A stretch of 64,000 nucleotides of DNA from Candidatus Tenderia electrophaga (lineage in GTDB: Bacteria > Pseudomonadota > Gammaproteobacteria > Tenderiales > Tenderiaceae): positions 1,426,001 through 1,490,000 of the forward strand of contig CP013099.1 of the NCBI GenBank assembly GCA_001447805.1, in the 5' to 3' direction. Made by a program: the position numbers and the translations under genes. Below the pieces are notes generated by a model that worked only from the letters and a program-made list of their open reading frames with translations, was not told where the DNA came from and made no database searches. Below are positions 18,652 to 20,093 of this stretch, in pieces (the stretch's first letter is position 1; each line of letters starts with the position of its first letter).

Positions 18652-19134
18652 TCAGTGCTCGTGGCCGCCGGGGCCGTGCACGTGACCGTGTTCCAGCTCT
18701 TCCTCGGTGGCGTCGCGCACCTCCAGCACATCCACGTCGAAGTTCAAGGTGACGCCGGCGAGGGGGTGATTGCCGTCGATGGTGACGTCTTCACCTTCCA
18801 CCTCGGTGACGGTGACGACACTCATGCCCTGGTTGGTCTGCGCATGAAACTGCATGCCGGGCTTCACTTCGTCGACGCCCTCGAACATCTCTTTGGAGAG
18901 GGTTTGTTTCAGATTGTCATCGCGCTCACCGTAGGCCTCGGCCGGCTCGATGGTGACACTCACCTGATCGCCGGCGGTCTTGCCTTCCAGGGCGTTTTCC
19001 AGGCCGGGAATGATATTGCCGACGCCGAGAATGAAGGCGAAGGGCTGGTTCTTGTCGGCCTGATCGATTAGGGTGCCCTGCTCGTCTTTGAGTGTATAGG
19101 CGATGGTCGCCACTTTGTTGGTTGCGAGTTGCAT
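18652..19134 (-). CDS. slyD: FKBP-type peptidyl-prolyl isomerase SlyD
   Basis: Prolyl isomerase and chaperone, which in E. coli also supplies nickel to hydrogenase. The 160-residue protein has the split FKBP domain (QPFAFILGVGNIIPGLENALEGK) with the insert-in-flap chaperone domain (EAYGERDDNLKQTLSKEMF to about residue 125). It ends in a short His-rich tail HGHVHGPGGHEH. The tail is much shorter than in E. coli SlyD, so metal storage is probably modest. Monocistronic, divergent from the Nudix-like gene. Confidence 0.92.
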   Translation of the reverse strand: MQLATNKVATIAYTLKDEQGTLIDQADKNQPFAFILGVGNIIPGLENALEGKTAGDQVSVTIEPAEAYGERDDNLKQTLSKEMFEGVDEVKPGMQFHAQTNQGMSVVTVTEVEGEDVTIDGNHPLAGVTLNFDVDVLEVRDATEEELEHGHVHGPGGHEH

Positions 19135-19284: not shown

Positions 19285-19713
19285 ATGGAAGCCCCGATCG
19301 AGCAGACACCATCCAAGCGGCCGCGCCTCTCGGTCGGCGCGATTGTGCGTCACTTCGGCGGGGTGTTGCTGGTCAAGTGTGGCGATCGAGATGGCGCCGC
19401 CGCACAGTGGCGCTTGCCGCGCGCCGAGCAAGTGTGGGGCGAAACCTTGCAACAGACGGTTGCGCGCGCCGTGCAGCTGCAAACCGGCATACGGGTGGCG
19501 GCCGGGGATATTTTTCAGGTCTATGATTTGATCACGATAGACGGAGACGATCACACGGTAATGCTGGATTTCGAGGCGGCCTACGTGGACGGCGATCTCC
19601 GGCCGGGAGATTATGTGGAGGACGTGGCCTGGGCCAGCGGCCTGGCATTAAGATCCATGGAGGTCGAGGAGCACACGTCCGAACTGCTTTCCGATATGGG
19701 GTTATTAAGATGA
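19285..19713 (+). CDS. Nudix-fold protein with degenerate Nudix box
   Basis: A 142-residue protein with the Nudix fold pattern (SVGAIVRHFGGVLLVK, then WRLPRAEQVWGETLQQTVARAVQLQTGI). The catalytic box REUxEExGU reads RAVQLQTGI, so the metal-binding glutamates are replaced by Ala, Leu and Gln. It is therefore unlikely to hydrolyse nucleoside diphosphates and may act as a ligand-binding or regulatory module. It overlaps the downstream cupin gene by four bases (ATGA), so the two are made together. Confidence 0.7.
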   Translation: MEAPIEQTPSKRPRLSVGAIVRHFGGVLLVKCGDRDGAAAQWRLPRAEQVWGETLQQTVARAVQLQTGIRVAAGDIFQVYDLITIDGDDHTVMLDFEAAYVDGDLRPGDYVEDVAWASGLALRSMEVEEHTSELLSDMGLLR

Positions 19714-20093
19714 AGCAAAAGTATCTCAGCCGTTATCAGGACATTGAACCGTTTATTACCAAGGACGGCTCGGTGATCCGTGAACTCATGCATCCCGGCC
19801 GCCATGCTGCGAAGCAGCAGAGTCTGGCCGAGGCGCGCGTCGCGGTGGGCGCCAAGACCGTGTTGCATCGCCATCACCACACCGAGGAATTGTATTACGT
19901 CACCGCGGGCCGGGGCCTGATGACTCTGGGGGATCAACGCTTCGAGGTGAAGGTGGGGGATAGTATTTGCATCGCGCCGGGCACGCCGCACTGTATCGAA
20001 AACACCGGCAGCGAGGAGCTGGCCTTACTGTGTTGCTGCAGCCCCGGTTACAGCCATGAGGATACCGAGCTGTTGGCGAGTCAGTTGGCCTAG
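19710..20093 (+). CDS. Single-domain cupin protein
   Basis: A 127-residue small beta-barrel protein. The metal-binding cupin motif 1 is intact (HRHHHTEELYYVTAGRG) and motif 2 reads GDSICIAPGTPHCIEN, giving the usual three-His/one-Glu site. Such proteins range from isomerases to sugar-binding regulators, so no reaction is assigned. The C-terminal part is Cys-rich (LLCCCSPGY). Its ATG overlaps the stop of the Nudix-like gene, suggesting a joint function with that non-catalytic partner. Confidence 0.85.
   Translation: MKQKYLSRYQDIEPFITKDGSVIRELMHPGRHAAKQQSLAEARVAVGAKTVLHRHHHTEELYYVTAGRGLMTLGDQRFEVKVGDSICIAPGTPHCIENTGSEELALLCCCSPGYSHEDTELLASQLA

Follow-up and report, generated by a model that had tools for sequence, protein, structure and literature searches.

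In the genome of Candidatus Tenderia electrophaga, a small open reading frame encodes a Nudix-fold protein whose Nudix box is degenerate, and its stop codon overlaps the start codon of a cupin gene. This arrangement raises the question of what a disarmed Nudix protein may do, and whether the cupin is its fixed partner. A first-pass annotation had proposed a catalytically dead protein in a fixed partnership, one that may bind a nucleotide-type ligand and control or present the cupin. The reading favoured here, at somewhat better than even probability, is that the protein is a Nudix pseudoenzyme, born within one order of bacteria, selected for a non-catalytic role and usually co-produced with a facultative metal cupin.

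The locus

The window (the whole 64,000-nt stretch of DNA analysed) is part of a 3.66 Mb contig in a 3.76 Mb genome (G000). The Nudix protein matches Pfam NUDIX (PF00293, 6.6e-8; score 33.1 bits, cut-off 21.1), which places it in the Nudix homology clan. The match covers residues 13–118 of 142 and is the sole Pfam match of the protein at E-values up to 1. The cupin matches Cupin_2 (PF07883, 2.3e-18). Neither protein attains the cut-off of any NCBIfam model. The four-base overlap reported previously is present as ATGA (Table 1).

Table 1. Features of the Nudix-cupin locus (window positions; gene coordinates of the Nudix protein and the cupin include the stop codon).
Feature	Positions	Strand	Remarks
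FKBP-type peptidyl-prolyl isomerase gene, divergent from the Nudix gene	18652..19134	-	PF00254, 1.3e-15; His-rich C-terminal tail
Nudix-fold protein gene with degenerate Nudix box	19285..19713	+	142 aa
Degenerate Nudix box region (protein residues 48–69)	19426..19491	+	8 degenerate rows aligned with 14 selected intact ones
ATGA stop/start overlap of the Nudix and cupin genes	19710..19713	+	sequence
Cupin_2 protein gene	19710..20093	+	127 aa; widespread family, metal ligands invariant

A promoter scan gives one promoter-like site, on the minus strand, where shuffled sequences average 0.5; a terminator search found none. PADLOC gives one weak match, in which the Nudix protein hits PDC-S07 (7e-4).

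Loss of the catalytic residues

The consensus of the Nudix hydrolase box is GX5EX7REUXEEXGU. The box of the window protein reads RAVQLQTG: at positions 62, 65 and 66, the glutamate positions of REVxEETG, it has A, L and Q, and the Gly-Gly ahead of the box is R-A. Eleven genomes of the order were sampled (G000 to G010), and a related degenerate form is found in eight. At positions 62, 65 and 66 the other seven display A, T, Q (G003); I, T, Q (G002); I, Q, Q (G004); A, E, Q (G006); E, A, A (G009); V, H, Q (G001); and E, R, T (G008). Thus all three box glutamates are gone in five of the eight members and two are gone in three. In 6/8 the last box glutamate (position 66) is replaced by Gln, and the second Gly of the Gly-Gly is absent in all eight.

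Fourteen intact rows, picked by hand from 24 intact tree rows (class-wide intact matches of at least 110 residues), were aligned for comparison. All 14 have E at positions 62, 65 and 66. Position 110 is D in 14/14 of these rows versus 1/8 of the degenerate members. More widely, R-E-x-x-E-E is kept in each of the 28 loci that were read from the class beyond the order (taken from the best 30 loci, two of which belong to the order; 207 of 369 class genomes matched) and in the four phylum matches outside the class. The degenerate form is absent from these 28 loci and four matches.

The nearest homologues found are ordinary Nudix hydrolases of the class, e.g. L118 in G134 and L119 in G029. They share with the window protein the fold, a similar length, and W42, P45, H90 and W116, but they keep GG, REVxEETG and D110, all of which the window protein has lost. 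With the Gly-Gly and positions 62, 65 and 66 lost, the protein lacks the intact box of an active Nudix hydrolase. The earlier description of it as catalytically dead is well supported at the sequence level, as the box glutamates, the Gly-Gly and the downstream aspartate are gone and the 14 intact relatives retain them; the protein would be expected not to hydrolyse.

The predicted structure is weak (pLDDT 57.7, built from three sequences), with a Nudix-like order of strands and helices. It gives structural matches up to Z 5.4, and Nudix proteins appear by name among the 50 listed; the remaining matches presumably contain a Nudix domain as well.

Selection and phylogeny

The degenerate frame is open in 8/8 genomes. 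Between the window and G003, the only pair without a high or saturated dS (several pairs give infinite dS), the Nudix gene shows pS 0.46, pN 0.136 and dN/dS 0.21 over 141 codons. For the same two genomes dN/dS is 0.086 for the cupin and 0.03 for the FKBP neighbour. By this measure the degenerate gene is under purifying selection, and the open frame in eight genomes and the dN/dS of 0.21 against G003, the nearest relative, point to more than chance.

The degenerate clade also has conserved residues of its own. K31, Y80, L105, G108, D113, V114, A115, S118, M125 and E133 are fixed in at least seven of its eight rows; at these positions the intact rows are not fixed, or are different. E53 is retained in seven of the eight rows, H90 and D81 in all, and seven or eight rows have an acidic residue at D113, E133 and D137. 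A C-terminal stretch, DVAWASGLALRSM in the window, is conserved in the clade and is recognizable also in the two members that lack the cupin (G001 and G009).

In the tree, seven of the eight degenerate rows form one branch (support 97/98). The G008 row is a long branch among the intact rows; the bootstrap did not converge, and all eight rows lie on one side of a branch in only 30% of 200 bootstrap trees. Despite its place in the tree, the G008 gene has the same location as the others, with the FKBP gene on one side and the cupin on the other.

Compared with the five other genomes encoding both proteins, the window's Nudix protein is 34%–74% identical and its cupin 61%–77%. The Nudix protein thus diverges faster than its neighbour, and the two need not form a tight functional unit.

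Pairing within the order

The Nudix and cupin genes are adjacent in six of the 11 order genomes (G000, G002, G003, G004, G006 and G008). Two genomes, G001 and G009 (95% and 98% complete), have the degenerate Nudix gene without the cupin, and in one, G010, the cupin occupies this place but the Nudix gene is missing. Neither gene is found in G005 (77% complete) or G007. True cupin members match at 1e-50 or better; the best matches in G001, G007 and G009 reach only 7e-7 to 6e-6. Weak matches to other Nudix proteins are also present in genomes of the order.

In all six genomes with the pair the frames overlap or abut. The overlap is four bases in the window and G003 (ATGA in both), one base in G002 and G006, and eight bases in G008; in G004 the frames abut (0). 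The junctions differ, so the two frames have stayed close together even as the sequence changed. Translational coupling from the Nudix gene to the cupin gene would fit this arrangement.

The FKBP gene adjoins the Nudix gene in 7/7 genomes where that side is visible (it is not visible in G001). The position next to FKBP is thus better conserved than the pairing with the cupin. In G009 (L164:6511-7443) the Nudix stop is immediately followed by the start of a gene with a MEKHLA domain (PF08670, 1.2e-53), located where the cupin would be, and ABC transporter genes come after it. G002 and G004 carry their MEKHLA genes on other contigs, and G007 has a MEKHLA gene and no degenerate Nudix. In G001 an ABC transporter ATPase gene lies about 40 bases past the degenerate Nudix gene. 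In G010 the FKBP gene lies on one side of the cupin, and on the other is a gene related to that of the window's LPP20-type lipoprotein. The Nudix slot, between FKBP and cupin, is taken there by a T4 gp19-like tail tube gene (L166:7454-7981).

The four-base overlap had been taken to argue for a fixed partnership. Closeness of the two frames does hold in 6/6 pairs, but the Nudix gene occurs without the cupin in 2/8 genomes and the cupin without the Nudix gene in 1/11. A fixed partnership as originally worded is rejected because the distribution is facultative, and a four-base overlap need not signal an obligatory pair.

Distribution outside the order

The 80 named cupin loci examined were the top matches among at least 570 confirmed relatives. 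The degenerate Nudix gene lies beside the cupin in two (L036 and L037), both from the window's genus; 78/80 have the cupin without it. When 110 cupin loci, some of which share contigs and 30 of which have only ~1.5 kb of flank, are checked by profile and motif, the degenerate Nudix is detected only at the window locus, L036 and L037. Of 369 evenly drawn class genomes, 68 have the cupin (E-value up to 1e-20), and a by-eye comparison of positions, among the Nudix matches listed, finds cupin and Nudix side by side only in the window's genome. None of the ordinary class Nudix hydrolases lies beside a cupin where both positions are known (by eye, among the matches listed). The search of other genomes, which the first-pass annotation had suggested as a check, therefore recovers the pair, but only in this order. 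In the genomes examined, the pairing is order-restricted, usually coupled and facultative.

A different Nudix gene with an intact box is located ~0.5 kb downstream of the cupin in 3/110 loci (L064:1665-2138, L111:5893-6363 and L187:2323-2841), which counts against a statement that no Nudix is near the cupin elsewhere. The frame between the two genes is one we take to encode a pseudouridine synthase. These Nudix genes are not adjacent to the cupin and have no bearing on the degenerate protein.

Clustering of the open reading frames in the 80 loci shows no conserved cupin neighbourhood: besides the cupin and an antisense frame, no group occurs in more than 13 loci. One group is presumably an amidase, judging from its sequence; the others are likely to be spurious frames. 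In the titles and abstract openings of the literature matches listed, a Nudix-cupin pair is not described.

Nine of the 80 cupin loci are in records titled Methanosarcina, isolates among them (L038, L042, L044, L058, L060, L061, L063, L075 and L082). Their cupins are 58%–63% identical to that of the window, and the family is also found in beta- and gammaproteobacterial records. The family thus reaches the archaea without the degenerate Nudix, and this suggests transfer of the cupin between domains.

Possible roles of the degenerate protein

An ordinary Nudix hydrolase would have lost its box glutamates within one order and become a pseudoenzyme. The pseudoenzyme would then have been kept for a non-catalytic role, most likely to bind, and not cleave, a phosphorylated ligand of the nucleotide type or else a protein surface. 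Its gene would usually come first in a unit of two, with translation continuing into the metal cupin gene; the pair would be a local co-expression arrangement, with the cupin as a facultative partner that elsewhere stands alone. By analogy with known proteins, the pseudoenzyme is probably a non-hydrolysing ligand binder, and Gln at position 66 in 6/8 members would fit a polar contact kept without metal.

A closer tie to the cupin would be that of a dedicated regulator or subunit, where the pseudo-Nudix forms a complex with the cupin and gates it on a nucleotide-type ligand. Six of six pairs overlap or abut through differing junctions (4, 4, 1, 0, 1 and 8 bases), and the conserved C-terminal stretch is a further point in favour; but that stretch is also recognizable in the two genomes lacking the cupin and so is not cupin-specific, G001 and G009 have the Nudix gene but no cupin, and G010 and 78/80 named loci have the cupin but no degenerate Nudix gene. 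This proposal is tentative and holds a modest probability at best. A Nudix fold that catalyses with another set of residues would agree with the retained E53, H90 and D81, with the acidic D113, E133 and D137, and with the single box glutamate left in each of three members. Such a repurposed enzyme is improbable, given that the second Gly of the Gly-Gly is gone in 8/8 and D at 110 remains in 1/8.

The gene could also be a decaying relic, unneeded and drifting away, kept only for translation that feeds the cupin gene. It does diverge faster than both neighbours, cupin and FKBP, and it is not found in 3/11 order genomes (one of them 77% complete). Against decay are the frame open in every member, the dN/dS of 0.21 and the clade-fixed positions, as well as its retention in G001 and G009, where no cupin follows. 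Purifying selection together with the protein's own conserved residues argues for a kept pseudoenzyme, not a relic, and decay is given little credence. Rather unlikely, though less so, is a wider version of the ligand-binder proposal: a disarmed hydrolase acting as a free-standing, metal-free nucleotide sensor, exchangeable and translated ahead of a varying effector, i.e. the cupin in six genomes and the MEKHLA-domain protein in another. If true, bacteria would be plugging an exchangeable sensor ahead of small ligand-binding proteins.

To our knowledge, non-enzymatic Nudix domains are found mainly inside larger proteins, and those of TRPM2 (NUDT9H), DBC1/CCAR2 and NrtR are parts of such proteins. 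The window protein, unlike these, is free-standing at 142 aa with no second Pfam domain. NrtR-type transcription factors have a C-terminal winged-helix DNA-binding domain. That assignment does not fit the window protein, with its length of 142 aa and NUDIX (13–118) as its only Pfam match.

Non-enzymatic Nudix proteins are an accepted class and a precedent for the fold without hydrolysis, as outlined in PMC5389931. In TRPM2 NUDT9H, DBC1/CCAR2 and NrtR the fold is non-hydrolysing, or serves as a ligand sensor or interaction domain (PMC5389931, PMC6461439, PMC4974056 and PMC5671594), and the TRPM2 domain is described as having lost hydrolysis and as binding ADP-ribose. The earlier suggestion that the Nudix protein may bind a nucleotide-type ligand and control the cupin has precedents among such proteins; here the binding and any effect on the cupin are putative. 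A free bacterial Nudix protein that shows graded loss of the box over eight genomes, and whose class also contains intact relatives, would be a compact case for the study of passage from hydrolase to binder.

The cupin partner

The earlier statement that the overlapping cupin keeps a complete metal site is borne out. H53, H55, E59, E60 and H94 are invariant in all 64 alignment rows (63 of the 80 loci plus the window; gapped or stop-containing rows and those >88% identical were dropped). The profile match and the metal ligands (HxH, E, H) identify the protein as a Cupin_2 member.

The AlphaFold2 model of the cupin has a pLDDT of 93.0. Its top structural match is DddK (6a55_A; Z 17.5, 2.1 Å over 119 residues, 24% identity), followed by Pac13 (Z 16.5), phosphomannose isomerase (16.4) and KdgF (15.8). 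Among solved structures compared by profile, TM1287 is the best match (9.5e-13), and none is close. All five share the cupin barrel with the window protein, but its family is set apart from them by a strongly conserved TKDGSxIRE-like start and an LCxCxPxYxHxDT-like end. The structural matches are near one another in Z and differ in function; thus the reaction of the cupin is not assignable.

DddK is a DMSP lyase with a metal site and the catalytic tyrosines Tyr64 and Tyr122. Y62 of the cupin, invariant in the 64 rows, aligns with the DddK tyrosine located two residues past the metal glutamate. By its numbering this is presumably Tyr64; no counterpart of Tyr122 was established. Mutants of both DddK tyrosines are named in PDB titles.
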